Below, piece after piece: positions 2,829-13,960 of a stretch of DNA of 20,413 bases. A program made the position numbers and the translations under genes. The notes beneath the pieces are model-generated. The model saw nothing but the letters and a program-made list of their open reading frames with translations, was not told where the DNA came from and ran no database searches. The stretch comes from a virus. Position 1 is the stretch's first letter. Each line of letters begins with the position of its first letter. Where the stretch lies: the IMG/VR virus record IMGVR_UViG_3300042542_002927, positions 1 through 20,413 of that record. One strand, given 5' to 3'.

Positions 2829-2841
2829 TTGCTTATCTTTG
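2810..2841 (+). promoter_or_regulatory. Promoter of gene 2863
   Basis: TTTG 2810-2813, 20 nt, TATCTTTG 2834-2841. The -33 box is within the last codons of the 52-residue gene. Confidence 0.85.
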
Positions 2842-2862
2842 TATTCTAAACAAATAAACATT

Positions 2863-3210: not shown

Positions 3211-3217
3211 AAATAAA

Positions 3218-3249
3218 TTTGGTAGTATCAAATAAATTACTTATTTTTG
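3218..3249 (+). promoter_or_regulatory. Promoter of gene 3272
   Basis: TTTG 3218-3221, 20 nt, TATTTTTG 3242-3249. The upstream AAATAAA is shared with most promoters of the non-hairpin class. Confidence 0.8.
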
Positions 3250-3271
3250 TATTTATAAATAAAATTAAAAT

Positions 3272-3520
3272 ATGGAAACAAAAAAGGAAGACTTGATAAA
3301 TAAACTTAAACAAACGGGTGTAAGAATATCAGAAGTTAATCAAAATTTACACTGGGTTGAAATATATTTTGAAACAGTTGATTGTGTTTTAATGGAGAAG
3401 ATAGGTTCTGTTGTTAAAGAATTTTTCTATATTGAAGGTAGATATACACATTTACTTCCGAAGTTTATCGGTAAAAAGGGTTGTGTTTGTTTTATTTTTG
3501 ACGAGAATTTATTATCTTAA
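3272..3520 (+). CDS. Hypothetical protein upstream of attC-like repeat
   Basis: An 82-residue protein (METKKEDLINKLKQTGVRIS start) with alternating strand-like segments in the second half; no family is recognised. It has a standard phage-type promoter. Its stop is about 13 nt before the first attC-like repeat, the position a cassette gene would have relative to its own attC, so it may be the gene of a first cassette that later gained a phage promoter. Confidence 0.75.
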   Translation: METKKEDLINKLKQTGVRISEVNQNLHWVEIYFETVDCVLMEKIGSVVKEFFYIEGRYTHLLPKFIGKKGCVCFIFDENLLS

Positions 3521-3533
3521 TTTTTTATTACAC

Positions 3534-3625
3534 ATAACGGTTGAGTGTATGAGTAGTGTGGCTTTGCACATACTTTCAACTTACAAATAAATTTATTTAG
3601 CCACATTACTTATACATTTTGTTAT
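3534..3625 (+). repeat. attC-like interrupted inverted repeat 1
   Basis: ATAAC (3534-3538) pairs with GTTAT (3621-3625). Inside it, 3545-3563 pairs with 3599-3617 over 19 positions, three of them G-T. The two paired blocks are separated by a small asymmetric internal loop (GGTTGA against TTT). The total of 92 nt, terminal AAC...GTT boxes and two paired blocks match the layout of integron attC sites. The wobble pattern could instead mean a structured plus-strand RNA. Confidence 0.6.
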
Positions 3626-3646
3626 AGGTATGTAAAATTTACGGTT

Positions 3647-3802
3647 ATGAATAAAGAAAATGATTATTGGAAAGGTATATTAGTTGGATTTGCGGTAAGT
3701 ACAATTGTTTGGTGTACTCTATGGGCATTTGTTATTGGTAAAATAGACAAAGTTCATAAACAAGAACTTGACTATATAATAGAAAAACACCAAACAAAGT
3801 AG
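3647..3802 (+). CDS. 51-residue single-pass membrane protein, cassette-like
   Basis: The ORF starts MNKENDYWKGILVGFAVSTI and has one hydrophobic segment at about residues 9-31, followed by a charged helix, so it is a small inner-membrane protein with a cytoplasmic tail or the reverse. It has no phage-type promoter and ends in TAG, whereas neighbours mostly use TAA. It lies exactly between the two attC-like repeats, which suggests a mobile cassette. Its function is not known. Confidence 0.65.
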   Translation: MNKENDYWKGILVGFAVSTIVWCTLWAFVIGKIDKVHKQELDYIIEKHQTK

Positions 3803-3820
3803 GTAGTAAATTTTATTACC

Positions 3821-3952
3821 TATAACGGTTGAAGATATATGAAGTGGGAGCATCAAGGAGGTTCGATTCCTCAGGAGAACTATGGTATAAGTGTGAGTAG
3901 TGGAGATAGTGGGTTCGACTCCCACCTCCCATTTCATATATCTTTTGTTATA
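3821..3952 (+). repeat. attC-like inverted repeat 2 with T-arm insert
   Basis: TATAAC (3821-3826) pairs with GTTATA (3947-3952), and 3832-3850 pairs with 3926-3944 over 19 positions with one G-T. It opens with the same TAACGGTTGA motif as repeat 1 and ends in the same TTTGTTATA. The centre holds two tRNA T-arm-like hairpins: GAGG-TTCGATT-CCTC (3858-3872) and GTGGG-TTCGACT-CCCAC (3909-3925). Confidence 0.6.
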
Positions 3953-4065
3953 AAATCGTTTTAATGTTTTATAACTATTATATATACGCAAGTTTTTATA
4001 AAATATTGATTATCTATTTTATATAAGATAAAAATCAATTATTTTCTTAAAATTGTGAAAATAAT

Positions 4066-4096
4066 TTTGTGGTTTCATTTATTTTACTTATCTTTG
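4066..4096 (+). promoter_or_regulatory. Promoter of gene 4120
   Basis: TTTG 4066-4069, 19 nt, TATCTTTG 4089-4096. The stretch between the attC-like repeat and this promoter is AT-rich and holds no gene that I can see. Confidence 0.8.
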
Positions 4097-4119
4097 TATT
4101 CTAATCAAAACCCAGTATC

Positions 4120-4635
4120 ATGCAAATAGAACTAAAGAACATCAAGTTTAGTGAAGCACTATCGGAAGAAACCAATGCGTTTGTTGCTGATGTGTATGTA
4201 AACAAAGTAAAGGTAGCCTATGCCAAAAATGATGGTCATGGTGGTTGTACCTTTTATCATGCCTACTTGGGCAAAGGTGAAGTTGTCAAACAAGCTGAAG
4301 ATTTTTGTAAAGCGTTGCCACCTTTGAAGTATGGTGGTATGGAATTGCCAATGAGTTTGGAAATGAAAATTGACAATTTATTGAGTGATTGGTTAAAAGC
4401 CAAAGACCAAGCCAAGTTTGACAAAAAGCTACAAAAGGATATGCTCACAAGTTTGTGTATAAAAACACCTAATGGTTACACACAACTTACATGGAAAAGT
4501 GGCAGTCGTAATATTACCATAGCTGAATTGGTTAGTGTGCCGAATGGTCGTGAGGTATTAAAGAAGACCATAGCCCAAGCCAAAGCAGAGGGCAAAGAGG
4601 TATTAAACACAAACATACCACAACATTTATTTTAA
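4120..4635 (+). CDS. Conserved phage hypothetical protein, 171 residues
   Basis: The N-terminal half (SEETNAFVADVYVNKVKVAY, then KNDGHGGCTFYHAY) resembles a recurrent uncharacterised phage family as I recall it; the KNDGHGGCT block looks like a functional site or turn. A helical middle (residues 75-110, Lys-rich) and a C-terminal part end in NIPQHLF. The ATG follows a typical leader. No enzymatic motif is certain. Confidence 0.85.
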   Translation: MQIELKNIKFSEALSEETNAFVADVYVNKVKVAYAKNDGHGGCTFYHAYLGKGEVVKQAEDFCKALPPLKYGGMELPMSLEMKIDNLLSDWLKAKDQAKFDKKLQKDMLTSLCIKTPNGYTQLTWKSGSRNITIAELVSVPNGREVLKKTIAQAKAEGKEVLNTNIPQHLF

Positions 4636-4642
4636 AAATAAA

Positions 4643-4674
4643 TTTGGAAGTATCATTTATTTTTCTTATCTTTG
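4643..4674 (+). promoter_or_regulatory. Promoter of gene 4702
   Basis: TTTG 4643-4646, 20 nt, TATCTTTG 4667-4674, preceded by AAATAAA and 7 nt after the previous stop. Confidence 0.85.
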
Positions 4675-4701
4675 TATTCTAATCAAAACAAATAAATAAT
4701 C

Positions 4702-5172
4702 ATGGGAACAAGAAGTTTAACACACGTTATCGAAACTTACAAGGATAACGGTAAAAAGAAAAAGCAAACTCTATTAACTATGTATCGTCAGTATGACGGT
4801 TATCCAAGCGGACATGGTGCTGACCTTGTTGAGTTTTTGGAAGGTAGTAGAGTAGTTAATGGTTACTCAACATCTGATACAGAAAGTGAAAAACGAGTAT
4901 TCAATGGCACAGGTTGTCTTGCGGCTCAATTGGTTGCTCACTTCAAAAAAGGTATTGGTGGGTTCTACTTACACAGACCTAACGCCAAAGATTGTGGCGA
5001 GAACTACACTTATGACATCGAGGTTGATTCCGACACCAACCAAGTAACCTTGCGTTGCTATGAAATCGGCTACATGAATAAGAAAAACGAATACGTAAAT
5101 AAAAAGTGTATTTTGTTTGAGGGCAAAGCGGAGGCGTTTTTGGAAGCTGTAAAAGAAAAACAGGAAGCCTAA
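4702..5172 (+). CDS. Conserved phage hypothetical (MGTRSL family)
   Basis: The 156-residue product starts MGTRSLTHVIETY and carries YRQYDGYPSGHG at about residues 28-39, a signature I know from many phage and some bacterial hypothetical proteins. No catalytic activity is established for them. The C-terminal third is strand-rich and ends in a charged helix (EAFLEAVKEKQEA). A fused terminator-promoter follows immediately. Confidence 0.88.
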   Translation: MGTRSLTHVIETYKDNGKKKKQTLLTMYRQYDGYPSGHGADLVEFLEGSRVVNGYSTSDTESEKRVFNGTGCLAAQLVAHFKKGIGGFYLHRPNAKDCGENYTYDIEVDSDTNQVTLRCYEIGYMNKKNEYVNKKCILFEGKAEAFLEAVKEKQEA

Positions 5173-5177
5173 AAAAA

Positions 5178-5207
5178 AAGTGACACCATTATTTGGTGGT
5201 GTCACTT
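5178..5207 (+). terminator. Terminator with -33 box in its loop
   Basis: A perfect 11-bp stem, AAGTGACACCA (5178-5188) with TGGTGTCACTT (5197-5207), and loop TTATTTGG, which contains the next gene's TTTG. An A-run precedes it and a T-rich stretch follows. Confidence 0.85.
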
Positions 5208-5223
5208 ATTTTCTTTATCTTTG
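5192..5223 (+). promoter_or_regulatory. Promoter of gene 5242, -33 in terminator loop
   Basis: TTTG 5192-5195, 20 nt, TATCTTTG 5216-5223. The right arm of the terminator occupies most of the spacer. Confidence 0.85.
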
Positions 5224-5241
5224 TATTCTAAATAAAACAAT

Positions 5242-5499
5242 ATGGCAAAGTTACCAAAACCAAGATTCTATCAAGCAGTCCTAAAACCAATCAAAGGGAA
5301 TGTCCTTGACCACGTATACCCACACTTCAAAGGCAAGAACCAACTAACCATGACCGAACGTATGGGTAGTGAGGAGGCTAAGTGTCCCGACTGTAGCAAC
5401 AATGAATGGTTCCTTTTGCCCGATGACAGTGTAGCTGTTAGGGAGGGTGGCAAACCTTATATCGAATGTATCAACTGTGGATACCACACACATCTTTAA
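5242..5499 (+). CDS. Small zinc-ribbon protein
   Basis: An 85-residue protein with two Cys pairs, Cys48-x2-Cys51 and Cys76-x2-Cys79, typical of a zinc ribbon that binds nucleic acid or protein. The N-terminal half is basic (MAKLPKPRFYQAVLKPIKGN). The next gene, also Cys-rich, begins 19 nt after the stop without its own promoter, so both are likely on one mRNA. Confidence 0.82.
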   Translation: MAKLPKPRFYQAVLKPIKGNVLDHVYPHFKGKNQLTMTERMGSEEAKCPDCSNNEWFLLPDDSVAVREGGKPYIECINCGYHTHL

Positions 5500-5518
5500 T
5501 CAATTAAATCTAGATACT

Positions 5519-5809
5519 ATGGCTCAATCAAATCTTACGAAAGCGTTCAAAGCCCTACGCAAAAAGGGTTACTTTGCAAGACAAAACTTTTGGTGTTGTC
5601 AATCATGTGCGTGGTCAGCGATGACCGATGAGCAAGCCAAGAAGACTGTGTTCTATCACCAACAGGATGCGGATGACCTCCGTGAAATTAACAGCTGTCA
5701 CTTAGCGTGGAGTGGCAATGGACAGGAGATTGTAGAGGTTCTCAAGGAGAACGGCATTGAAGTGGATTGGAATGGCAGTGACGGTACAAGGATTAATATC
5801 ACTGTATAA
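5519..5809 (+). CDS. DUF6891-like protein
   Basis: The start is ATG 5519; an upstream in-frame ATG at 5447 lies inside the preceding gene and is rejected. The 96-residue product has ARQNFWCCQSCAW at residues 20-32, a CCxxC cluster (Cys26, Cys27, Cys30), then FYHQQDADDL, a pattern I associate with DUF6891. A later Cys60-His61 could complete a metal site. The function is not known. It is transcribed with the zinc-ribbon gene upstream. Confidence 0.8.
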   Translation: MAQSNLTKAFKALRKKGYFARQNFWCCQSCAWSAMTDEQAKKTVFYHQQDADDLREINSCHLAWSGNGQEIVEVLKENGIEVDWNGSDGTRINITV

Positions 5810-5813
5810 ATAA

Positions 5814-5838
5814 AAGGTACCAATTGATTTGGTACTTT
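5814..5838 (+). terminator. Short terminator fused to promoter
   Basis: GTACCAA 5817-5823 pairs with TTGGTAC 5829-5835 and is extended by a G-T and two A-T pairs to 5814 and 5838; the loop is TTGAT. The next gene's TTTG spans the loop and right arm. The T-tract is short (TTT). Confidence 0.65.
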
Positions 5839-5859
5839 CGAATAATTTAAATACCTTTA
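5828..5859 (+). promoter_or_regulatory. Promoter of leaderless gene 5864
   Basis: TTTG 5828-5831, 20 nt, TACCTTTA 5852-5859. Only 4 nt separate the -7 box from the ATG. Confidence 0.7.
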
Positions 5860-5863
5860 CAAA

Positions 5864-6076
5864 ATGGGTGCAGAAGAAACATATATAAAAAATATCATAA
5901 ATGGAATTCGAGGGTTACGGTTACGTAGTAAAACACCATCTGAGGTTAACGTTGGTTCGAACCTGAATCGTCTTAAGATACTAAATGAAGGGTTATATGA
6001 TGAGTACTTAACCAAATATACAAAAGCTTTAAAAGAATATAATAAACACAATGCGACAAAGAACCATATTAGTTAA
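5864..6076 (+). CDS. Hypothetical protein, probably leaderless
   Basis: A 70-residue basic protein (MGAEETYIKNIINGIRGLRL start) rich in helix-forming residues; no family is recognised. The ATG comes 4 nt after the -7 box. Its last 26 nt overlap the next gene in another frame, which suggests translational coupling. Confidence 0.72.
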   Translation: MGAEETYIKNIINGIRGLRLRSKTPSEVNVGSNLNRLKILNEGLYDEYLTKYTKALKEYNKHNATKNHIS

Positions 6077-6311
6077 CAGCAAGGTAATCAAAACGGTACT
6101 GGGTGATTATCACCGTGCCATGGAAACACCTAACCACATTTATTTTGTGCTTTTTGAAGAATGTGATGAGAACAACAGCGTCAAGATGTTCAATCGTAAC
6201 AGGGAGATTGTGAGTGACAATTACTTTGCATATCAAGCTTTTATGGAAGACATTGAGACCAAGCAGTATACGTGGGTATCAGAAAAATTGAAAGAAAATT
6301 TGGATAAGTAA
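6051..6311 (+). CDS. Hypothetical protein, 86 residues
   Basis: It begins MRQRTILVNSKVIKTVLGDY and has strand-like alternation followed by a C-terminal helix; no domain is recognised. ATG 6051 lies within the end of the preceding gene and no promoter precedes it, so it depends on the 5828 promoter. The next promoter's -33 box is in its last codons. Confidence 0.75.
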   Translation: MRQRTILVNSKVIKTVLGDYHRAMETPNHIYFVLFEECDENNSVKMFNRNREIVSDNYFAYQAFMEDIETKQYTWVSEKLKENLDK

Positions 6312-6330
6312 AATTAATTTTGTATCTTTG
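6299..6330 (+). promoter_or_regulatory. Promoter of the glucosaminidase gene
   Basis: TTTG 6299-6302 in the coding end of the previous gene, 20 nt, TATCTTTG 6323-6330. Confidence 0.85.
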
Positions 6331-6350
6331 TATCAACCAAAACATATATT

Positions 6351-6929
6351 ATGATTTACAAATATGATTATAAGAATCTTACTTATAAGAACGTAACCAA
6401 AAACCTAGCATTTATTTTGATTGGGATTATCGTGTTATTCACAGGAATAACATCAATCCTTATGCTAACCAGAATCAATGATATACGGTATATTTCGTCT
6501 GAAACGAAATCTATCATTATCAAAGAATCAGCCAAAGAGAATGAGTTTAGTCCAGAAAAGTTAAGGTCATATATTCTGGAATTGAACATCAAATTTCCAC
6601 ATATTGTATATGCACAGGCTCGTTTAGAAACTGGAAACTTCAAAAGCCAGATATTCAAAACCAACCACAATCTATTTGGAATGAAGGTTGCCACATTGCG
6701 ACCAACTACCAACAAGGGTGAAGAAAACGGTCATGCTTATTATGAGGGGTGGAGAGAATCGGTTGTTGATTATGCTTTTTACCAAGCACAGTATTTATCT
6801 GATATAAAAACAGAAGCAGAGTATTTGCAGTATCTAAAAGCCAATTATGCCGAAGACCCTAACTACATGGCACAGTTACAGGTTATCATTGATAAACAAA
6901 AGGGTAATAAAAATTTATTTAAAAAATAA
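6351..6929 (+). CDS. Membrane-anchored glucosaminidase-like hydrolase
   Basis: The 192-residue protein has one N-terminal membrane segment at about residues 19-40 and then a glucosaminidase-type domain (FlgJ/LytG/endo-beta-N-acetylglucosaminidase superfamily). ARLETGNFKS places the likely catalytic Glu at 93, NHNLFGMK is at 105-112, and YYEGWRESVVDYAFYQ at 130-145 is the second hallmark block. It should cleave glycan chains of peptidoglycan on the periplasmic side. In phages such enzymes serve in lysis or wall opening; the anchor and absence of a holin nearby leave the role open. A perfect hairpin terminator fused to the next promoter follows. Confidence 0.85.
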   Translation: MIYKYDYKNLTYKNVTKNLAFILIGIIVLFTGITSILMLTRINDIRYISSETKSIIIKESAKENEFSPEKLRSYILELNIKFPHIVYAQARLETGNFKSQIFKTNHNLFGMKVATLRPTTNKGEENGHAYYEGWRESVVDYAFYQAQYLSDIKTEAEYLQYLKANYAEDPNYMAQLQVIIDKQKGNKNLFKK

Positions 6930-6934
6930 TCACG

Positions 6935-6964
6935 AAAAAGTTTGGAATATCCAAACTTTTTTTT
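6935..6964 (+). terminator. Terminator of the glucosaminidase gene
   Basis: A perfect 11-bp stem, AAAAAGTTTGG (6935-6945) with CCAAACTTTTT (6951-6961), a 5-nt loop AATAT and a T-run. The left arm contains the next TTTG. Confidence 0.9.
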
Positions 6965-6971
6965 ATCTTTG
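6941..6971 (+). promoter_or_regulatory. Promoter of gene 7008, -33 in terminator stem
   Basis: TTTG 6941-6944, 19 nt, TATCTTTG 6964-6971. The T-tract of the terminator runs into the -7 box. Confidence 0.85.
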
Positions 6972-7007
6972 TATCATAACAAATTATTAATAAAACTCAA
7001 ATTAAAA

Positions 7008-7382
7008 ATGGATTATCCAAAATTTATAATAGAAACACTAGACCAAGAAGGTGATTGTTTAATAGTGGGTGAATGTACTTATCATAAAGAACTTGCTACC
7101 GATATTAAAAAGGTAAAAGGTGGTGGTGTTGAAAATAACTTAGTAGATTGGTTTGATAATACTTATGGCAAAATGACTAAAAAAGAAATAGAAACAGCTA
7201 TAGTAAAAGAAAACGAAAAGTTTAATAAACTAAAAAAAGAAAATTCACAATTGCCATATCATTACGAATCTGCTCATATTCAAAATATACAGTTTTTAAA
7301 TAGAAGATTGACTGCAATTGAAAATAAAAAAGAAAATGGTGGTGGAATTTTAGATTTGGAAACGTATGGTAGCAATGACTAA
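7008..7382 (+). CDS. Hypothetical protein with coiled-coil-like middle
   Basis: ATG 7008 is chosen because the upstream in-frame ATG at 6942 lies in the terminator. The 124-residue product starts MDYPKFIIETLDQEGDCLIV; residues 55-85 (KKEIETAIVKENEKFNKLKK) are charged and helical, and the end is Gly-rich (NGGGILDLETYGSND). I recognise no family. Codon use is more AT-rich than in its neighbours. Confidence 0.78.
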   Translation: MDYPKFIIETLDQEGDCLIVGECTYHKELATDIKKVKGGGVENNLVDWFDNTYGKMTKKEIETAIVKENEKFNKLKKENSQLPYHYESAHIQNIQFLNRRLTAIENKKENGGGILDLETYGSND

Positions 7383-7399
7383 AAATACTTAAAAATAAA

Positions 7400-7431
7400 T
7401 TTGGTAGTGTCATTTCTTTTACTTATCTTTG
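7400..7431 (+). promoter_or_regulatory. Promoter of gene 7462
   Basis: TTTG 7400-7403, 20 nt, TATCTTTG 7424-7431, with upstream AAATAAA and the extended -33 context TTTGGTAGTGTCA. Confidence 0.85.
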
Positions 7432-7461
7432 TATCATTAATTAATCAAAAACATATATATC

Positions 7462-7728
7462 ATGGCAACTTATTTAGACGGAATGGAAGGTGGTAAACAC
7501 AACAGCGATAACACAGAAACAAGCATTAGCCCAAAGACATTCAAGGTATCATTGACCTTTGATGGTATCACAGGCAAAAATCCATTGGAAGTGGCAAAGA
7601 CCATAGCCAAATGGTGTAAAGATGCCGACACATTTACTTACGATGTAGTGAATGAAGAAACCAACGAGGCGTTTACCGTAGATTTGTCAGAAGATGATGA
7701 AGATGCTGTACTACCAAATAAAGATTAA
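7462..7728 (+). CDS. Conserved phage hypothetical, acidic C-terminus
   Basis: An 88-residue protein. VSLTFDGITGKNPLEVAKTI and the ending FTVDLSEDDEDAVLPNKD resemble a small protein family I recall from several phages; no function is assigned. The strongly acidic tail could be DNA-mimic-like or simply solubilising; neither is shown. Confidence 0.85.
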   Translation: MATYLDGMEGGKHNSDNTETSISPKTFKVSLTFDGITGKNPLEVAKTIAKWCKDADTFTYDVVNEETNEAFTVDLSEDDEDAVLPNKD

Positions 7729-7734
7729 AATAAA

Positions 7735-7766
7735 TTTGGATTATTCAAAAATAAAAACTATCTTTG
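7735..7766 (+). promoter_or_regulatory. Promoter of leaderless gene 7771
   Basis: TTTG 7735-7738, 20 nt, TATCTTTG 7759-7766, with ATG 4 nt later. Confidence 0.85.
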
Positions 7767-7770
7767 TATC

Positions 7771-8037
7771 ATGAGCAAATTCAAACCACAGGTAACAGTG
7801 ATTACCACAGAAACAAGAAGGGATTATAGCAACAGTTATCAAAAAGGAAATCCTTATAAAACACTGGTGTATCCTACATACAGGGAATTGTGTAAGAACG
7901 TGAAAAGACATCTGGATGAAAATCTGGAGGCTAACATATCTGTATCAAGAAGTCGTAGAGGCGAGTGGGGTGAATGGTACGAGATATGGACATTGGTTGA
8001 CGGGAAAGCTAAAATTATAAAAGAAGGTTGGCAATAA
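7771..8037 (+). CDS. Conserved phage hypothetical, leaderless
   Basis: An 88-residue protein with ETRRDYSNSYQKGNPYKTLV, YPTYRELCKNVKRHL and SVSRSRRGEWGEWYEIW, blocks I associate with an uncharacterised phage family. It is very basic and aromatic, which would suit nucleic-acid binding, but this is inference. The start is fixed by the 4-nt distance from the -7 box. Confidence 0.83.
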   Translation: MSKFKPQVTVITTETRRDYSNSYQKGNPYKTLVYPTYRELCKNVKRHLDENLEANISVSRSRRGEWGEWYEIWTLVDGKAKIIKEGWQ

Positions 8038-8038
8038 A

Positions 8039-8069
8039 TTTGGATATTAAAAAATAAATACTATCTTTG
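8039..8069 (+). promoter_or_regulatory. Promoter of gene 8094
   Basis: TTTG 8039-8042 begins 2 nt after the previous stop; 19 nt, TATCTTTG 8062-8069. Confidence 0.83.
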
Positions 8070-8093
8070 CATAACAATTAAAAAATAAAGAAT

Positions 8094-8360
8094 ATGAGAA
8101 ACAAGGTAATCGTTTACGGACTAGTAAAGAATAATACAAATAAAAAAGTTTTGGTAGGTACGATAGAAGATATCCGTACCTTCATCAAGAATCGTTGGAA
8201 AGATGTTGATACCTATATAACTCGAATTACGGGTATCAAGGTTGAAGAAGACTTCTACGCTTACGTGGATGACACAAAGAACCTATTCACAACAATGGAT
8301 AAAATGGGTTATGAGGCAACTAACCTTTGCGAAGTACCCATAGAAGACTTCATGAATTAA
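8094..8360 (+). CDS. Hypothetical protein, 88 residues
   Basis: It starts MRNKVIVYGLVKNNTNKKVL with a beta-hairpin-like N-terminus, then a helix (IEDIRTFIKNRWKDVDTYI) and a second strand/helix pair. No family is recognised. It is followed directly by the longest fused terminator in the window. Confidence 0.8.
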   Translation: MRNKVIVYGLVKNNTNKKVLVGTIEDIRTFIKNRWKDVDTYITRITGIKVEEDFYAYVDDTKNLFTTMDKMGYEATNLCEVPIEDFMN

Positions 8361-8400
8361 AAAAAAGTGACAATACTATTTGGTATTGTCACTTTTTTTT
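8361..8400 (+). terminator. 16-bp terminator with -33 box as its loop
   Basis: A perfect 16-bp stem (8361-8376 with 8383-8398), including the A-run and T-run, around the core AGTGACAATAC/GTATTGTCACT. The 6-nt loop is TATTTG, so the next gene's TTTG is the loop itself. It begins at the base after the stop codon. Confidence 0.92.
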
Positions 8401-8410
8401 CTTATCTTTG
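8379..8410 (+). promoter_or_regulatory. Promoter of the DUF1281-type gene
   Basis: TTTG 8379-8382, 20 nt, TATCTTTG 8403-8410. The spacer is the right arm and T-tract of the terminator. Confidence 0.88.
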
Positions 8411-8435
8411 TATTCTAATCAAAAACATATATATC

Positions 8436-8915
8436 ATGCCAAACCATGTAACCAATCGCCTTACCATTGTAGGCGATGAACAAGAAGTAGCGAAGTGCCT
8501 CGCTGAAATCAAAGGCACAAAAAAAGACCAATTTATTGACTTCAATACCTTTGCACCAATTCCAAAGGAACTGGAAGGTACACAAAGCCCTGTGAAAATC
8601 ATATCTCAAGAAGATTATGATGACCAAGAAAAACGTATTGCACATAACGAACTAACCGAAACTGAAAAACTTCATGGTGTAAGTCGTGGGATTACCAAAG
8701 AGATGTCAGAAAAATTCCAAGAAGAATTTGGGTATGACAACTGGTATGACTGGCAAATCGCCAACTGGGGTACAAAATGGAATGCTTACGACCAATTCTT
8801 TAATGGCGATAACATGATTGAATTTAGCACAGCTTGGAGTACGCCTTACCATGCAATTACAATCTTGTCTATAAAGTATCCTACACTACAGTTTAAATTG
8901 GCTACTAAAAAATAA
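8436..8915 (+). CDS. DUF1281/YubB ferredoxin-like phage protein
   Basis: ATG 8436 is used because the upstream in-frame start at 8367 lies in the terminator. The 159-residue product shows MPNHVTNRLTIVGD, FNTFAPIPKELEG, NWYDWQIANWGTKWNAYD and IEFSTAWSTPYHAI in that order, the layout I know for DUF1281 (YubB ferredoxin-like) proteins of plasmids and phages. Their biochemical role is not known. The length fits a full member. Confidence 0.85.
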   Translation: MPNHVTNRLTIVGDEQEVAKCLAEIKGTKKDQFIDFNTFAPIPKELEGTQSPVKIISQEDYDDQEKRIAHNELTETEKLHGVSRGITKEMSEKFQEEFGYDNWYDWQIANWGTKWNAYDQFFNGDNMIEFSTAWSTPYHAITILSIKYPTLQFKLATKK

Positions 8916-8918
8916 TTG

Positions 8919-8949
8919 GGAAAAGATTTGGAAAAGTCAAATCTTTTCC
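8919..8949 (+). terminator. 12-bp terminator fused to promoter
   Basis: GGAAAAGATTTG (8919-8930) pairs perfectly with CAAATCTTTTCC (8938-8949), loop GAAAAGT. It starts 4 nt after the stop. The same sequence can also pair GGAAAAG (8930-8936) with CTTTTCC (8943-8949), so two hairpins compete. Confidence 0.8.
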
Positions 8950-8958
8950 TTATCTTTG
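8927..8958 (+). promoter_or_regulatory. Promoter of gene 8983
   Basis: TTTG 8927-8930 at the top of the terminator stem, 20 nt, TATCTTTG 8951-8958. Confidence 0.87.
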
Positions 8959-8982
8959 TATTCTAATCAAATAAATAATATC

Positions 8983-9288
8983 ATGGCAAAAGCAACAAAA
9001 ACATGGAAATTGGGTGAGGTAGCACAAGGTGGCGTTATCACAGCCGAAATAAACGGTAAGGTTATTACCATTATTGGAAAGGAGTGGGATTTCTCAACTG
9101 GTAGTAGAAGGTCGTCTAACCAAAGCAATGCAAAAGAATTTACACGAGGTAGTGTACTTGCCAATGAGCAAGATGCCGAACGTAAATTATATATGTTCCT
9201 TAGCGACTTATCGACTTCATATTGGGCTGACGAGATTATCAAGTGGGTAAAAACAAAGGTTAAAATAGAAACCGAATTTGGGTATTAA
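8983..9288 (+). CDS. Conserved phage hypothetical protein, 101 residues
   Basis: It begins MAKATKTWKLGEVAQGGVIT; strands with IIGKEWDFSTGSRRSSNQSN follow, then a helix ending in ADEIIKWVKTKVKIE. The pattern resembles uncharacterised phage proteins I have seen. The start is ATG 8983 because the alternative at 8956 overlaps the -7 box. No function is known. Confidence 0.83.
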   Translation: MAKATKTWKLGEVAQGGVITAEINGKVITIIGKEWDFSTGSRRSSNQSNAKEFTRGSVLANEQDAERKLYMFLSDLSTSYWADEIIKWVKTKVKIETEFGY

Positions 9289-9299
9289 AAATAAATGAA

Positions 9300-9328
9300 A
9301 AAAGATTTGGAAAAGTCAAATCTTTTCC
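9300..9328 (+). terminator. 10-bp terminator, near-copy of the 8919 hairpin
   Basis: AAAAGATTTG (9300-9309) pairs with CAAATCTTTT (9317-9326), loop GAAAAGT. From AAAAGATTTG to the leader it is identical to the junction before gene 8983. Confidence 0.78.
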
Positions 9329-9337
9329 TTATCTTTG
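9306..9337 (+). promoter_or_regulatory. Promoter of gene 9364
   Basis: TTTG 9306-9309, 20 nt, TATCTTTG 9330-9337. Confidence 0.87.
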
Positions 9338-9363
9338 TATTCTAATCAAAACAAAATAATATC

Positions 9364-9936
9364 ATGGGACAGTATTACAACGCAGTCATTTTGGCTGACA
9401 ACAAGAAAACAGTAAAAGCGTGGGTTTATTCTCACGACATCAAGTACACATTCAAACGTGCTGACGGTACGGAGGTAGTGCATGGCAATGGGCTTAAACT
9501 CATGGAACATTCCTATATTCGTAATGAGTTTGTGAGTGCTTTTGAAAGCCTTATCAAAAACAAACCTCAAAGGGTTGTATGGGGTGGTGACTATGCCGAC
9601 TTGTGCAAAGGGTTAAAAACCAATATCTATGACCGTTGCAAAGACAGTAACAAGGTATTGCCTACTGACAGACCCAATATACGTGAAACTCGTTATGTGG
9701 TTAACCACAGCAAAAAGGAGTTTGTGGATAAGTACAAGGTTGCTGAAATCAAAGATTGGAAAGGTGCAAAGATACATCCTTTGCCTTTATTGACTTGCGA
9801 AGGCAATGGTCGTGGTGGTGGTGACTTTAGGGGTGAGAACAAGTACATTGGAACGTGGGCTAGGGACATCATAAGTGTTGAAAGCAAAAAGCCACAGGGT
9901 TATACAGAGATTGTGCCTAATTTTAACGAAGATTAA
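9364..9936 (+). CDS. Conserved phage hypothetical (MGQYY family)
   Basis: A 190-residue protein starting MGQYYNAVILADNKKTVKAW, an N-terminus found on many phage hypothetical proteins. Other visible blocks are GNGLKLMEHSYIRNEFVSAF, RVVWGGDYADL, TRYVVNHSKKEFVDKYK and a C-terminal LPLLTCEGNGRGGGDF. Its many conserved aromatics suggest a folded globular domain. No catalytic assignment is possible from the sequence. Confidence 0.87.
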   Translation: MGQYYNAVILADNKKTVKAWVYSHDIKYTFKRADGTEVVHGNGLKLMEHSYIRNEFVSAFESLIKNKPQRVVWGGDYADLCKGLKTNIYDRCKDSNKVLPTDRPNIRETRYVVNHSKKEFVDKYKVAEIKDWKGAKIHPLPLLTCEGNGRGGGDFRGENKYIGTWARDIISVESKKPQGYTEIVPNFNED

Positions 9937-9949
9937 AAATAAATATAAG

Positions 9950-9980
9950 AAAAGGTTTGGAATATTCAAACCTTTTTTTT
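9950..9980 (+). terminator. 10-bp terminator fused to promoter
   Basis: AAAAGGTTTG (9950-9959) pairs perfectly with CAAACCTTTT (9967-9976), loop GAATATT, followed by more T. Confidence 0.85.
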
Positions 9981-9987
9981 ATCTTTG
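9956..9987 (+). promoter_or_regulatory. Promoter of leaderless gene 9992
   Basis: TTTG 9956-9959 in the terminator's left arm, 20 nt, TATCTTTG 9980-9987; ATG 4 nt further. Confidence 0.87.
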
Positions 9988-9991
9988 CATT

Positions 9992-10213
9992 ATGAAACAA
10001 GAATATCTTAATACCATAACACAGACAGCCACAGGATTACCTGTAAAGAACTTGCGTTGGCTAACCATTGATAATATCATTACAGGGCTAGTAGAGTGTC
10101 CTATATTGAACAAAACGATAAGTGGGCAATGGCGTAGGAATGGAACGCCTACCAATAGCATAAAAGGTAGGGCTGAATTAAAGTTGGAAATAAATTTGGA
10201 AATGTCAATTTAA
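9992..10213 (+). CDS. Hypothetical protein, leaderless, 73 residues
   Basis: ATG 9992 is the only in-frame start compatible with the promoter; an earlier start at 9875 lies inside the upstream gene. The product begins MKQEYLNTITQTATGLPVKN and carries QWRRNGTPTNSIKGRAELKL near the end. It is basic, and no family is recognised. The next promoter's TTTG is in its final codons. Confidence 0.75.
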   Translation: MKQEYLNTITQTATGLPVKNLRWLTIDNIITGLVECPILNKTISGQWRRNGTPTNSIKGRAELKLEINLEMSI

Positions 10214-10226
10214 TTACTTATTTTTG
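10195..10226 (+). promoter_or_regulatory. Promoter of gene 10247
   Basis: TTTG 10195-10198 within the preceding coding end, 20 nt, TATTTTTG 10219-10226. Confidence 0.82.
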
Positions 10227-10246
10227 TATTCTAATCAAATAACATT

Positions 10247-10561
10247 ATGCAAAAGAAAACAATAATCAAGAAAATCAAACGTGTTATTACAGAGTGGGGT
10301 GCGTTTGGCTGTGGTGAAGTCCCAATGGGTAATGGTGTATCAATAAACTCAATGGGTGACCTTGTAGCCATAGGTGAATACTTTAACAGCAAGACAGTTG
10401 AGGTTGAAGTATTTGATACTGGAAGTATGAGTAGCGACAGCATACATACATACGAAGTTAGTTATGAGGATTTGTCAGCAGATATTTTGGCTGAAATTCT
10501 GGAACTGGTTGAACAATATGAGGCTGACCAGATACAAACTGAAAAAAGAATCTCAAATTAA
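10247..10561 (+). CDS. Hypothetical protein, 104 residues
   Basis: It starts MQKKTIIKKIKRVITEWGAF, then has a Gly/Ser-rich strand region (GEVPMGNGVSINSMGDLVAI) and an acidic C-terminal helix (LAEILELVEQYEADQIQTEK). No family is recognised. The next promoter begins within 1-2 nt of its stop. Confidence 0.8.
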   Translation: MQKKTIIKKIKRVITEWGAFGCGEVPMGNGVSINSMGDLVAIGEYFNSKTVEVEVFDTGSMSSDSIHTYEVSYEDLSADILAEILELVEQYEADQIQTEKRISN

Positions 10562-10593
10562 TTTGGTAGTGTCAATTTAATTCCGTATATTTG
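10562..10593 (+). promoter_or_regulatory. Promoter of leaderless gene 10598
   Basis: TTTG 10562-10565, 20 nt, TATATTTG 10586-10593; ATG 4 nt after the -7 box. Confidence 0.83.
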
Positions 10594-10597
10594 CAAC

Positions 10598-10876
10598 ATG
10601 GAATTAGTAATCATTGAAGTAGAAAGCCCAGAGTGGGAATATATGTGGAACTGGCTAACAGTTCATCCAATCAATTCTGGTCTGGAAGAACCAAGCGTAG
10701 CCAGACATCCAGAATCTGGTGAGGCATGGCAGTATATGGGTAGCTTTAAACAAGGCAACAGGGTAATATCAGAATTTCGCCATCGCCATCATCCAGTAAC
10801 CAATAAAATAGAAGACTTGAAAGTTAGTCATGAAAACTTTGATGTTAATTGTATTAAGAAATCTTTTAAGCTTTAA
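10598..10876 (+). CDS. Hypothetical protein with FRHRHHPVT tail
   Basis: A 92-residue protein rich in Trp, Glu and His. Its C-terminal 36 residues (EFRHRHHPVT...DLKV...IKKSFKL) are matched by the small gene at 11573, so the two are paralogous. No family is recognised; the His/Arg cluster could bind metal or nucleic acid. The 3' end overlaps the convergent HNH gene by 11 nt. The start is set by the leaderless spacing. Confidence 0.8.
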   Translation: MELVIIEVESPEWEYMWNWLTVHPINSGLEEPSVARHPESGEAWQYMGSFKQGNRVISEFRHRHHPVTNKIEDLKVSHENFDVNCIKKSFKL

Positions 10877-11528
10877 CCCATCTATTATGATAACTACATA
10901 AAGGTTGTAAGTTAGAATAATGATTTAGCTTGATTATTTCTTCAATCGTATTGACAGATGATAATTTTACAATATGGTCAATGTCCCACGTTTTATTTGG
11001 TTCAAATATACCATCTTTAGGGTTTCCATAATTTCCCCAGTTCATCCAAGGTTGCCATAATGATTCTATGTGTTTTTTAAACTCATCAAAAGAGCAACCT
11101 AAAATTATTTCTGTTTTTGTCGGTTTATCAACCCCTTTACGTTTAAATGATTGGTTGATTAGACTTCTAATTGCCGTAATAGTACGAAATAATGGGTCTG
11201 TTTGTTTTCTATTGTTTAAATATTGATTTATAGTCGCTCTATTATTACGTCTATACTCTTTACCTTTATCTTTAATATTATCTTTGTTTTTTTGATAATA
11301 CTGTTTGTTTATTTCTTTTTTCTTATCAGCATTTTTTATACGATATTCAATATCATAAAGACGTTTTTGTTCTTTGTTTTCTTCATGATACTTTCTATCC
11401 CTTTCTTTTTTCTTATCAGCATTTTGCTCACGCCAAAGTTTTTCTTTTTGTTTTAATTTTTCAGCGTTTTGTTTACGATACTCAATATCATAAAGACGTT
11501 TTCTTTCTTTTTTCTCTTCTGGTGTCAT
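10866..11528 (-). CDS. HNH endonuclease, homing type
   Basis: A 220-residue protein. Residues 1-95 are a Lys/Glu-rich helix with a repeated unit (RLYDIEYR at 11-18 and 56-63; NADKKKE at 36-42 and 66-72). Residues 145-220 are the HNH domain: SFDEFKKHIESLWQPWMNW, then WDIDHIVKLS with Asp184-His185, NLQPL and the final His-Asn at 214-215. It is expected to nick or cut DNA near its own site as a free-standing mobile gene. It runs against its neighbours and sits between two paralogous small genes. I see no convincing promoter upstream. Codon use is very AT-rich. Confidence 0.87.
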   Translation of the reverse strand: MTPEEKKERKRLYDIEYRKQNAEKLKQKEKLWREQNADKKKERDRKYHEENKEQKRLYDIEYRIKNADKKKEINKQYYQKNKDNIKDKGKEYRRNNRATINQYLNNRKQTDPLFRTITAIRSLINQSFKRKGVDKPTKTEIILGCSFDEFKKHIESLWQPWMNWGNYGNPKDGIFEPNKTWDIDHIVKLSSVNTIEEIIKLNHYSNLQPLCSYHNRWVKA

Positions 11529-11533
11529 TTTAA

Positions 11534-11565
11534 TTTGTTTTTATTATAAATATTTCGTACCTTTG
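11534..11565 (+). promoter_or_regulatory. Promoter of gene 11573
   Basis: TTTG 11534-11537, 20 nt, TACCTTTG 11558-11565. It lies just outside the HNH start codon on the opposite strand. Confidence 0.75.
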
Positions 11566-11572
11566 AAAAGTG

Positions 11573-11698
11573 ATGTCTATGACTAAAAAAAAGTTTAGAC
11601 ACAGGCATCATCCTGTAACCCAGAAGAGAGAAGATTTGAAGGTACAAGCCTCTGGTGAGCTTACACCAGAGCAGATAAAAAAAAGTTTTAAAATTTAA
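11573..11698 (+). CDS. Short paralogue of the 10598 gene C-terminus
   Basis: A 41-residue product, MSMTKKKFRHRHHPVTQKRE followed by DLKV and ending IKKSFKI. It aligns with the last 36 residues of the 10598 product and lacks the first ~55. It has its own promoter 7 nt upstream; a second in-frame ATG at 11579 is equally possible. DNA identity to the longer gene is only moderate, so the copy is old, or it came in with a different flank when the HNH gene inserted. Confidence 0.7.
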   Translation: MSMTKKKFRHRHHPVTQKREDLKVQASGELTPEQIKKSFKI

Positions 11699-11707
11699 GC
11701 AAAAAAA

Positions 11708-11739
11708 TTTGGTAGTGTCAAAAAGTTTTTGTACCTTTG
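11708..11739 (+). promoter_or_regulatory. Promoter of structured RNA D
   Basis: TTTG 11708-11711, 20 nt, TACCTTTG 11732-11739. The downstream TATTGTT is like the start of small RNA B. Confidence 0.75.
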
Positions 11740-11744
11740 TATTG

Positions 11745-12158
11745 TTGAAAGAGAAATAAGTTCTTTAAAATATTGGGTTTTTTGGTAATGTACTCCACCT
11801 CTGTTAGGTTTAAACACTTTCGAGATACAGCCTCTGTTCTTTACCTATACTTCGGCTCGGTTTACCGACATAGAAGTTAGGTTTGAGCTCTTCGGAGCGA
11901 ATGTAGATTATGCGTAACTCCACCGACTGTGAGACCTCTGTCACGTTGAAGGGATGCCTCTTACCAAAACCCAAGGGTTCTCTGCCAAGGGACGCAAGTC
12001 GATGAGAGGGATTCTCATTGAGCCCAGAAGTGCCGTTGGGTGAATCAGATTTGAGCGTTTGATTCTTTATGGGTCGCAAACTCAACCAGCGGAGCTCACA
12101 CTTCAAAAAGTAACAATGGGCCCAGCCGCAAATTAAGGTTGGGTCCATTTTATTTTTG
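11745..12158 (+). ncRNA. Candidate ~410-nt structured RNA (copy D)
   Basis: From a good promoter to a strong terminator there is no plus-strand gene, but GC content is visibly above the neighbours and hairpins are dense. Visible stems: CCTA-ACTTC 11844-11853 with GAAGTTAGG 11873-11881, enclosing TCGG-TTTA-CCGA; GCTC-TTCG-GAGC 11887-11898, a cUUCGg tetraloop; ATGAGA 12002-12007 with TCTCAT 12013-12018; GAATCA 12042-12047 with TGATTC 12060-12065. Near the 5' end lies GGTAATGTACTCCA (11784-11797), related to the core in gaps A-C. I find no tmRNA, RNase P or group I/II signature. Confidence 0.6.
12118..12158 (+). terminator. Terminator of structured RNA D
   Basis: GGGCCCAGCC (12118-12127) pairs with GGTTGGGTCC (12137-12146), 10 bp with two G-U, followed by ATTTTATTTTT. 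Confidence 0.85.
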
Positions 12159-12380
12159 TCTATTATCCAGAACATGTTCTGGTCTATATAAAACTGTTGC
12201 ATGACTGCAATCTGGAGAGTGGTTTCTCCGAGCTGGGTTGTCTCTTCATTGAGGCGGCCCTTTTGCTTTTTAGGGATACCCATATATACACATTTGTGTA
12301 CATCGGTCCGATTGGCCTAGCAGCCCAGCTCAAGCTCTGGGTCCAGATAACCAGAAGACCAGAATCAGCTTCTGGGAAAT
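12159..12380. other. Palindrome-rich segment without a clear gene
   Basis: This GC-richer stretch holds a perfect 16-bp palindrome CCAGAACATGTTCTGG (12167-12182), the imperfect palindromes TACACATTTGTGTA (near 12290) and ATCGGTCCGAT (near 12303), and a series of CCAGA/TCTGG words. CCAGATAA (12343-12350) can pair with TTATCTGG (12412-12419), enclosing two further hairpins and so making a three-way junction. A minus-strand frame runs from 12283 leftwards through the RNA D region, but nothing supports it as coding. Confidence 0.4.
12167..12182. repeat. 16-bp perfect palindrome
   Basis: CCAGAACATGTTCTGG is self-complementary along its full length, a form typical of an operator for a dimeric regulator. 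It lies 20 nt past the RNA D terminator. No regulator gene is recognised nearby. Confidence 0.5.
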
Positions 12381-12406
12381 AAAAAAGCCCCAGACGAATC
12401 TGGAGC
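12381..12406 (-). terminator. Terminator of minus-strand gene 12430
   Basis: Read on the minus strand, GCTCCAGA-TTCG-TCTGGGGC forms an 8-bp stem with one U-G and is followed by six T. Confidence 0.9.
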
Positions 12407-12429
12407 TTAAGTTATCTGGTATCTTGTGG

Positions 12430-12615
12430 TTAAATTTCCTCAGTTTCTCCTGTTTCAGTATCTACTGTAAAGCTCTTGCCTTCTGGAGCTACCTCACGTA
12501 CATCTACAAACCAGTTAGGATTGTTCTGGATATTAGCGATAAACTCTCTAGCAGCCTCTTCTGGGCTATTGGTATCATAAGTGAATGATACAGTACATTC
12601 ATACGTTTTTGTCAT
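12430..12615 (-). CDS. Small hypothetical protein, 61 residues
   Basis: The product starts MTKTYECTVSFTYDTNSPEE and ends EGKSFTVDTETGETEEI: an N-terminal strand, a helix (EEAAREFIANIQ), then strands. This is a compact alpha/beta fold of the sort often seen in phage small proteins. It has its own terminator. I see no clear promoter in the 73 nt upstream, so it may rely on read-through from 12946. Base composition is less AT-rich than in the plus-strand genes. Confidence 0.8.
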   Translation of the reverse strand: MTKTYECTVSFTYDTNSPEEAAREFIANIQNNPNWFVDVREVAPEGKSFTVDTETGETEEI

Positions 12616-12644
12616 GATGTGTTAATTTAAAAGTGTATAGAAAT

Positions 12645-12673
12645 AAAAAAGCCCCAGACATTCCTGTCTGGGG
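12645..12673 (-). terminator. Terminator of minus-strand gene 12689
   Basis: On the minus strand CCCCAGACA-GGAA-TGTCTGGGG makes a perfect 9-bp stem followed by C and six T. Confidence 0.92.
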
Positions 12674-12688
12674 TTACTGGTTAATAGA

Positions 12689-12946
12689 TTACTTGCCCAT
12701 TGCTTTAAGTTCAGCCTTCACACGTTTTGCTGTGTCACCTCTCCATGTACTAGCATTCGATAAGAAGTAAAGGATGATACTATTGCCACTGTCATAACCG
12801 TATTTGTCTGTTGGCTTGTCTAAGCTTGACATTGCATCTAGGTAAGGTACAGCACCAAAGTAGATACCATTTTTGGATGTAGCTGTCCAATCCCTTCTGA
12901 TTTCTTGTGCTATTTCGTATAGCGGACGTTGAGTTGTGTTTGACAT
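12689..12946 (-). CDS. Conserved phage hypothetical protein, 85 residues
   Basis: PLYEIAQEIRRDWTATSKNG, YFGAVPYLDAMSSL, YGYDSGNSIILYFLSNASTW and KRVKAELKAMGK make up most of the protein. This is a pattern I recall from phages of widely different hosts. Its function is unknown. It has a good minus-strand promoter with the same leader motif TAATCAAA as the plus-strand genes, so it belongs to the same regulatory set in spite of its orientation. Confidence 0.87.
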   Translation of the reverse strand: MSNTTQRPLYEIAQEIRRDWTATSKNGIYFGAVPYLDAMSSLDKPTDKYGYDSGNSIILYFLSNASTWRGDTAKRVKAELKAMGK

Positions 12947-12968
12947 GATATATTGTTTGATTAGAATA

Positions 12969-13000
12969 CAAATATAAGGATAATATTTTTAATAACCAAA
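12969..13000 (-). promoter_or_regulatory. Minus-strand promoter of gene 12946
   Basis: On the minus strand TTTG (13000-12997), 20 nt, TATATTTG (12976-12969), then TATTCTAATCAAAC in the leader. Confidence 0.85.
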
Positions 13001-13041
13001 TAAAACAGCAAAAATATTTTTTAAAAAAAGTTGAAAATAAA

Positions 13042-13073
13042 TTTGGAGGTTTCAATTTTTTTATACATCTTTG
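13042..13073 (+). promoter_or_regulatory. Promoter of gene 13099
   Basis: TTTG 13042-13045, 20 nt, CATCTTTG 13066-13073. It is back-to-back with the minus-strand promoter at 12969-13000. Confidence 0.8.
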
Positions 13074-13098
13074 CACCATCATCAAATCAATCAAAATC

Positions 13099-13947
13099 AT
13101 GACACAAGTATCAAACGAAAAAATTCAGAAGTTTATATTAAAGAATAATGACAGGCTTACTACTTATGAAATGGCAGAGGCTTTGAATGTAAAAACTATT
13201 AGAATAGGTGGCAATAAAGCATCTTTAAAAAGACAGGGCTTAATAAGTGTAAGTGAGGCAAATGTATCTGTTGACAAAGCTATCAATAAGTTAACAAAAG
13301 CTTTATCACCTTATAAATTAAAGAAAGCCAAAGGCGAAAATACCTACATTAACCACAATGGCGAAAATAAAGAAGTGGCACGTAATAAAATGGCTAATGT
13401 TATCATTGATAGTAGCATTACAGGGCTTATTCCTACTTTGCCTAACACAGAGTGGGCTATCGAACAAAAGGTTGCTAATGGGCTTAATAACGTGAAATTT
13501 TTAGGTATTGAATGTGATGAGGCTACCTATGTTACAATGCGTTCAAACCTTAAAAATACAGGCTTAAATGCTGAAACGTATTTGGGTTACTTTGGCGATA
13601 AAGTCTATGGCAAAATTGAAAATAGTTATGCACATCTTATTATGGATTATTGTGGTGAATTGCATACAATAAGCAAAGAAGTTGAATATGCTATTACCAA
13701 TGATTTGGTTGTGGTTGGTGGTTGTATGTGTGTTACGTTTGCCAAACCAATGAGAGGCACAACGCCACAGGCTGAAAAATTAAAAGGGCTTGCGGCTATC
13801 AATAATGCAGATGACAGATGTATGTCAGACAGGGCTATTGAGGCTTATTTTAACAAGGTTACAGGTTGGAACTACGAAGTGGTTGAATTCTTTTACTACC
13901 AAGATACGTATCCGATGACTTTGGTAATTATCAAAAGAATAAAATAA
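13099..13947 (+). CDS. Methyltransferase-like protein with N-terminal HTH
   Basis: A 282-residue protein. Residues 17-50 (LTTYEMAEALNVKTIRIGGN and on) look like a winged helix-turn-helix. Residues 95-220 fit a Rossmann-type, SAM-methyltransferase-like core: NVKFLGIECDEATY (132-144) has the strand plus acidic residue expected after the SAM loop, and HLIMDYCGEL (179-188) fits the strand-4 motif. The glycine-rich SAM loop is not evident (SITGLIPTLPNTEW stands there), so catalysis is uncertain. It may methylate phage DNA, or have lost activity and bind DNA. No partner endonuclease is adjacent. Confidence 0.65.
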   Translation: MTQVSNEKIQKFILKNNDRLTTYEMAEALNVKTIRIGGNKASLKRQGLISVSEANVSVDKAINKLTKALSPYKLKKAKGENTYINHNGENKEVARNKMANVIIDSSITGLIPTLPNTEWAIEQKVANGLNNVKFLGIECDEATYVTMRSNLKNTGLNAETYLGYFGDKVYGKIENSYAHLIMDYCGELHTISKEVEYAITNDLVVVGGCMCVTFAKPMRGTTPQAEKLKGLAAINNADDRCMSDRAIEAYFNKVTGWNYEVVEFFYYQDTYPMTLVIIKRIK

Positions 13948-13960
13948 AGTTGCAAATAAA

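Follow-up and report, generated by a model that had tools for sequence, protein, structure and literature searches.

The locus at positions 8361–8410 raises the question of whether a single element of ~50 bp can both end one gene and start the next, as had been proposed in a first-pass annotation of the window (the whole stretch of DNA that was analysed, 20,413 bases). That proposal is supported as the best explanation of four computed facts: an excess of such hairpins over shuffled sequences, covariation of the hairpin arms, a predominance of G-U over A-C mismatches, and a concentration of the hairpins after same-strand stop codons. We put at roughly 0.8 the probability that the element is a composite terminator–promoter cassette of a T4-type phage of Bacteroidota, with termination, its strength and promoter activity all predicted from sequence.

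Architecture of the element at 8361–8410

The element and its two flanking genes comprise the following features:

8094–8360, + strand: upstream ORF of 88 aa, with its stop 18 nt before TTTG (ORF list)
8361–8376, + strand: left hairpin arm, made of an A-tract and GTGACAATAC (sequence, scan, fold)
8377–8382, + strand: loop TATTTG, containing the TTTG (−33) box at 8379–8382 (sequence, motif scan, fold)
8383–8398, + strand: right arm of the hairpin (sequence, scan, fold)
8403–8410, + strand: −7 box TATCTTTG (sequence, motif scan)
8436–8915, + strand: downstream ORF of 159 aa from the ATG at 8436 (read from sequence)

Reading and scanning of the sequence bore out the 16-bp stem with loop TATTTG that had been annotated, in which 8361–8376 (AAAAAAGTGACAATAC) pairs with 8383–8398 (GTATTGTCACTTTTTT). 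The flanking A/T runs extend this stem to 18 possible Watson-Crick pairs, and RNAfold closes an extra T-G wobble within the loop to give 19 pairs (8359–8400, loop ATTT), so the G of the TTTG box may be wobble-paired. The energy of the hairpin is −21.7 kcal/mol, and a run of eight T occupies 8393–8400. TTTG does lie in the loop as claimed, and the 20-nt spacer that follows it (8383–8402) is made up of the right arm and positions 8399–8402. The layout also agrees with the suggestion that a transcript starting here would lack the hairpin, as a start after the −7 box would exclude it. The protein of the downstream ORF gave a weak match to PF18406 (22.2 bits, with a cut-off of 22.8). Directly 3′ of −7 boxes we observed a leader, TATTCTAATCAA or TATCATAATCAA (e.g. 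at window positions 8411–8422); among 91 promoter motifs in the phage, 20 have the first form and 7 the second.

The phage and its promoters

The window is a virus record that is 99.97% identical to part of contig G001 (63.9 kb). G001 overlaps G004 (86.9 kb) by 16.1 kb at 100% identity, so the phage genome is at least ~134.7 kb. Its head protein (phrog_138, E 1.1e-67) and portal protein (phrog_213, E 6.3e-59) place it among the T4-type phages. In the tblastn list, Flavobacterium phage immuto is the first record with a name (38.7% identity), and its matching gene is annotated as Gp23-like; megablast of the window against phage and plasmid collections returned no match.

TTTG is the −33 box of Bacteroidota sigma-A promoters, and the motif scan found both features of this class here, a −7 box of the form TAnnTTTG and TTTG ~20 nt upstream. 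The promoter motif was defined as TTTG-N19/20-TANNTTTG. It occurs 89 times in G001 (none in the last 4 kb) and 44 times in G004, of which only one lies within positions 1–60000, the home of the head and portal genes. In the window the motif scan gave 38 plus-strand and 2 minus-strand hits, so many of its small genes seem to be served by individual promoters. In a count that gave 39 plus-strand motifs, hairpins in differing registers accompany 14, and at all 14 a same-strand ORF (at least 20 aa) stops 9–27 nt before TTTG.

For the comparative analysis we collected 460 motifs, drawn from this phage and from 18 contigs with which it has proteins in common (19 contig sets). The 18 contigs were recruited by relatedness to the head protein or to proteins of the window rather than by T4-type status. 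Further loci of this phage and all loci with fewer than four motif hits were left out. L166 and L182, which match L115 and L183 at 99.98% identity, were omitted as well, and so were two loci of a relative, L110 (4 hits) and L111 (5 hits), where no stem reaches 7.

Cassettes occur in at least three registers

The two sister loci that had been listed at 5178–5223 and 18128–18178 are real, with the same layout and other stem sequences (sequence, fold). The design with the box in the loop thus stands at all three loci; it proved to be one of at least three registers, so this placement is not essential. In type I the −33 box lies in the hairpin loop. In type II the hairpin fills the spacer, TTT-GGNNNNNN-GAAA-NNNNNNCC-TTATCTTTG, and the boxes flank it on both sides. 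In type B TTTG is within the left arm. Among the 101 hairpin promoters in the collection (folding at or below −9 kcal/mol), type I accounts for 37 and type II for 36, while 12 belong to type B and 16 are of other kinds. The remaining cassettes of the window are:

5178–5223, + strand: type I, TTTG at 5192–5195 in the loop, TATCTTTG at 5216–5223, −19.2 kcal/mol (motif scan, terminator scan, fold)
6934–6971, + strand: type B, TTTG at 6941 in the left arm (motif scan, terminator scan, fold)
8918–8958, + strand: type B, TTTG at 8927 in the left arm, type II fold also possible (terminator scan, fold)
9300–9337, + strand: TTTG at 9306, best fold type II, type B pairing possible (terminator scan, fold)
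9947–9987, + strand: type B, TTTG at 9956 in the left arm (terminator scan, fold)
14306–14343, + strand: type II, spacer hairpin GGAATTGT-GAAA-ACAATTCC between TTTG and TATCTTTG (motif and terminator scans)
14991–15028, + strand: type II, GGAAAGTA-GAAA-TACTTTCC, −7 box TACCTTTG (motif and terminator scans)
16411–16448, + strand: type II, GGAAAAGT-GAAA-ACTTTTCC (terminator scan, fold)
17566–17603, + strand: type II, GGAAAAGT-GAAA-ACTTTTCC (terminator scan, fold)
17956–17993, + strand: type II, GGAAAGTA-GAAA-TACTTTCC (terminator scan, fold)
18128–18178, + strand: type I, TTTG at 18147–18150 in the loop, G-U pairs in the stem, −16.8 kcal/mol (motif scan, fold)
18710–18741, + strand: type II-like promoter whose hairpin GGAATTGT-GAAA-ACTTTTCC is partly broken, −8.0 kcal/mol (motif scan, fold); left out of the 14 hairpin promoters of the window
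19381–19418, + strand: type II, GGAAAAGT-GAAA-ACTTTTCC (terminator scan, fold)
19715–19752, + strand: type II, GGAAAAGT-GAAA-ACTTTTCC (terminator scan, fold)

A 33-aa ORF stops 27 nt before the TTTG of the cassette at 18128–18178. The sequences at 8927 and 9306, which can pair as type B or type II, are a possible bridge between the registers.

Type II cassettes share a further element, AAAGA before TTTG, which is present in 33 of 36 type II sites, in none of the 37 type I sites and in 13 of the 359 motifs without a hairpin. It can pair with ATCTTT of the −7 box, and common descent of the type II cassettes could contribute to its enrichment. A single ancestral cassette is the probable source of many type II sites, and the counts and p-values given below therefore do not come from independent events. 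The nine nucleotides after the last G-C pair contain on average 6.4 T in type I, 5.3 in type B and 5.9 in type II. Behind the type II stem there is no clean T-run (TTATCTTTG), the tail being only UUAUCUUUG, so this type may terminate weakly.

Partly broken stems were found in four type II-like sites of this phage. Mosaic hairpins, GGAATTGT-GAAA-ACTTTTCC, occur at window position 18710 and at position 59509 of the 74.7-kb working stretch; they look as if the left arm came from one type II family and the right arm from another by recombination in the loop, with point mutation as the alternative.

The hairpins exceed chance expectation

Hairpins of −9 kcal/mol or lower accompany 101 of the 460 motifs, compared with 10.4 expected when flank and spacer are shuffled and the boxes kept, and at −12 kcal/mol or lower the numbers are 79 and 1.1. 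A stricter count (eight contiguous Watson-Crick pairs, loop of at most 8) gave 64 of 460 motifs, compared with 9 in shuffles; it misses stems that contain G-U pairs, and folding energy was used instead for this reason. In agreement with these numbers, a terminator scan of window positions 1–20000 found 41 sites, compared with 9.8 (sd 2.7) in shuffles, on both strands, so that one palindrome may be counted twice.

The hairpins are unevenly distributed among the contigs and nearly absent from some of them (0 of 53 motifs in c010, 1 of 35 in c011, 0 of 13 in c184 and 0 of 7 in c112). In 150,000 of the 160,410 bases of phage immuto, the scan gave a single motif match (−6.5 kcal/mol) and no such hairpin. 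A search of genome_contigs with one promoter pattern returned no match, and an Rfam search of the window returned no family.

Pairing is maintained while stem sequences change

The arms of the hairpins covary. In 14 distinct type II hairpins, the mean number of Watson-Crick pairs is 7.6 of 8, compared with 5.0 when the arms are swapped, a comparison that is partly circular since these hairpins had been pre-selected by folding. Pair 2 is GC or CG, pair 4 is AT, GC or TA, and pairs 3 and 5–8 also change on both sides, with three T-T at pair 8. In 23 distinct spacers that were selected solely by AAAGA before TTTG, the mean is 6.2 of 8 Watson-Crick pairs, compared with 4.5 for swapped arms, and 0 of 5000 permutations reached the observed value. 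The 29 distinct type I hairpins have a mean energy of −16.8 kcal/mol, which becomes −7.0 kcal/mol when the left flanks are exchanged; 30% of the exchanged hairpins still reach −9 kcal/mol, probably because the right arm is common to many of them. Among 131 motifs located 9–45 nt after a stop codon and not selected by folding, 56 reach −12 kcal/mol, compared with 15.6 when left flanks are swapped within the contig, and after removal of type II the numbers are 39 of 101 and 6.2. A comparison of orthologous promoters (310 genes from 11 of the 19 contig sets, 138 reciprocal pairs) gave little true orthologous covariation, so the covariation rests on cassettes at different genes and phages. Given the excess over shuffles and this covariation, a chance origin of the hairpins was set aside.

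The mismatches that do occur in the stems are asymmetric. Among 113 hairpins identified with a finder that is blind to G-U pairs (score of at least 9), there are 78 G-U and 12 A-C mismatches, compared with G-U baselines of 60% (left-arm transition model, nominal p ~2e-8) and 64% (shuffled sequences). At score 10 the counts are 55 and 9 against a baseline of 66% (p ~3e-4). Outside the context of 6–45 nt after a stop codon, G-U outnumbers A-C less strongly (30 to 15 at score 7), and in the phage of the window alone the G-U excess was not found (5 to 4 at score 8). The excess of G-U points to selection on RNA that is read in the direction of the upstream gene.

The hairpin follows the upstream gene

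The position of the motif relative to neighboring genes was assigned with ORFs called by a simple rule (at least 45 aa), and the contexts are hence approximate. When TTTG lies 6–45 nt after a same-strand stop codon, 75 of 168 motifs have a hairpin and the other 93 have no such structure. Within this range, hairpins are found at 0 of 28 motifs at 6–8 nt, 39 of 81 at 9–20 nt and 36 of 59 at 21–45 nt, i.e. at 75 of 140 motifs at 9–45 nt. None of the 85 motifs that overlap the end of the upstream gene has a hairpin, which is partly trivial because the left arm would fall in coding sequence. Hairpins are also rare at divergent junctions (5 of 65 motifs) and far from the upstream gene (12 of 102); inside called ORFs they accompany 7 of 38 motifs, and both motifs with no upstream ORF have one. 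Among the three strongest divergent exceptions, one was mis-called, as a 75-aa same-strand ORF lies 27 nt upstream; the second has no more than a 29-aa ORF at a distance of 43 nt upstream, and the third has none.

In the 138 orthologous pairs, the hairpin is absent from both sides in 83, present on one side only in 46 and on both sides in nine (three I–I, one II–II, one other–other, three I–II and one B–I). The type often differs at orthologous downstream genes, so the hairpin does not travel with the downstream gene. A hairpin that served the downstream promoter should be common at divergent promoters as well. Its rarity there, together with its variability at orthologous downstream genes, ties it to the upstream gene. 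Judged from covariation, the G-U excess, the stop-codon context and the rarity at divergent promoters, the hairpin is most likely part of the upstream transcript.

We propose that the transcript made by a polymerase leaving the upstream early gene would end in a hairpin and a U-rich stretch, and that the polymerase would be released inside the promoter of the next gene. A stable hairpin with a U-rich tract at the end of a gene, as in an intrinsic terminator, is what is seen at 8361–8410. The same DNA contains the −33 (TTTG) and −7 (TANNTTTG) boxes; transcription of the next gene would start from these a few bases past the hairpin, so its transcript would be free of the hairpin. The two constraints fit into ~50 bp because the boxes mostly sit in parts that need not pair, which are the loop in type I and the sequence just outside the stem in type II; in type B the complement of the box is found in the right arm.

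The alternative that survives best is that the hairpin is mainly a 3′-end stabilizer or processing site of the upstream mRNA, which blocks 3′–5′ exonucleases, including an RNase R-like enzyme of the phage. Context and covariation fit this equally well, type II tails lack a long U-run, and the phage has its own RNase II/R family protein (PF00773, E 1.9e-110):

L013:11102–13081, − strand: RNase II/R-family exoribonuclease, phrog_13933, PF00773 (profile match; 42 matching records in the phage collection)

However, type I sites have T-runs, such as the eight T at 8393–8400, and a stabilizer has no need to overlap a promoter. Moreover, T-run hairpins without overlap with a −33/−7 pair in these registers also trail gene ends in this phage, namely at 487–518 after the ORF at 11–475 (closely preceded by a promoter-like motif whose TTTG is at 457) and as GAGGATGAAAATTCCTCCTTTTTT, which directly precedes the promoter at position 56493 in the working stretch. 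We consider this alternative unlikely.

Much less probable still is an action of the inverted repeat as DNA at the downstream promoter, either as the operator of a phage regulator or as a cruciform or single-stranded hairpin at initiation. The overlap with the promoter core and the fixed register of type II, with its mostly GAAA loop, would suit such a role. Yet the stem sequence is free while pairing is kept, which differs from what is expected of an operator, several registers are used, and divergent promoters of the same phages, with identical needs at initiation, have the hairpin at only the 5 of 65 motifs mentioned above. The predominance of G-U over A-C mismatches also speaks against it, and both the operator and the cruciform readings were set aside on these grounds. 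That the hairpins are a functionless by-product of duplicated promoter repeats spread by recombination is hardly credible: 59–116 bp stretches around cassettes do recur within the phage at 87–98% identity and mosaic hairpins occur, but the compensating changes between diverged cassettes and the concentration at same-strand gene ends require selection on pairing.

A fused terminator–promoter could go one step further, with the polymerase released on the next promoter, staying on the DNA and restarting there. Post-termination recycling has been described for bacterial RNA polymerase (PMC6978380). We regard such a relay in this phage as doubtful; if it occurred, the same polymerases would serve one single-gene unit after another, each gene with its own short transcript.

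Comparison with known terminator–promoter elements

The nearest known case is the PeSL (promoter-early stem-loop) cassette of the T4-type phages RB49, phi1 and others (Arbiol et al. 2010, doi 10.1093/gbe/evq006; Comeau et al. 2014, doi 10.1093/gbe/evu129), which Comeau et al. term a composite promoter–terminator motif. Our scan of RB49 (100,000 of 164,018 bases) found a stem of at least 6 at 22 of 86 TTGAC-type promoter-like sites, compared with 5.8 in shuffles. Ten of these stems occupy the spacer directly behind TTGAC (e.g. AGGGGATC-ggt-GATCCCCT), eight have GGGAGTA/TACTCCC-like arms around the −10 box, and four lie elsewhere. The PeSL stem-loops of RB49 are reportedly effective transcription terminators. 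As the logic is the same, the fusion of terminator and promoter is less new than the first-pass annotation had implied.

Both systems combine an early promoter with a stem-loop in a T4-type phage, repeated before small variable genes, and the RB49 stem-loops likewise occupy two registers. In the present phage, a host-like early promoter (identified by motif only) and a stem-loop are found together in a short cassette, and the cassettes are dispersed in a variable region of small ORFs away from the structural genes. PeSLs reportedly mediate recombination and modular shuffling of genes. Dispersed similar copies, mosaic hairpins and changes of type at orthologous genes were seen here, where a comparable role is possible. 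However, the RB49 promoter has sigma-70 −35/−10 boxes, whereas the promoter here is TTTG-N20-TANNTTTG of the Bacteroidota kind, and for this reason the cassette is a variant, on another promoter type and with a further register, rather than a plain member of the PeSL group. It also differs in its A+T-rich stems, in the register that places the −33 box in the loop and thereby the T-run in the spacer, and in the outer AAAGAT helix that can pair with the −7 box.

A more distant likeness is the inverted-repeat promoter motif of the haloarchaeal virus HGTV-1, which there is TATA-like and belongs to an archaeal promoter. As reported for that virus, it stands ahead of most ORFs in the left-hand portion of the genome, and it has been likened to T4-type promoter stem loops (PMC3950731). 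An ordinary intrinsic terminator shares with the present hairpin the U-rich tract and the position just after a stop codon, but the hairpin here is inside the next promoter and not before it. Among the matches listed by a literature search over a limited set of papers, none reports cassettes of this kind from phages of Bacteroidota.

These comparisons suggest that T4-type phages have a general solution in the fusion of a terminator with the promoter that follows it, realized on two promoter types, and that they satisfy the double constraint in several registers, for the most part by leaving the boxes unpaired. Termination, insulation and polymerase recycling become directly testable at a single 50-bp element, since the hairpins vary among relatives and the cassettes differ at orthologous genes.

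Other structured sequences in the window

A candidate large structured RNA of ~550 nt lies at 11745–12300 on the plus strand, with a promoter motif at 11708. Its GC content is 45%, with 28–34% in 10-kb stretches of the phage, and its fold has a z-score of −5.5 (0 of 100 shuffles as stable). The region contains no plus-strand ORF of at least 80 aa and a 157-aa ORF on the minus strand. It matched no Rfam family at gathering score, and a search of the phage collection gave no match; pieces of 53–139 bases occur with 73–81% identity in the relatives L116/L181, L115/L166 and L103.

Two long imperfect palindromes, at 3528–3632 and 3815–3960, resemble integron attC sites and surround an ORF of ~50 codons that was identified by eye. 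At E 1e-3 no further copies of the second were found in the phage; the first has five more copies elsewhere in it (72–99% identical). Folded as single-stranded DNA, the palindromes have z-scores of −3.0 (3528–3632) and −3.8 (3815–3960).
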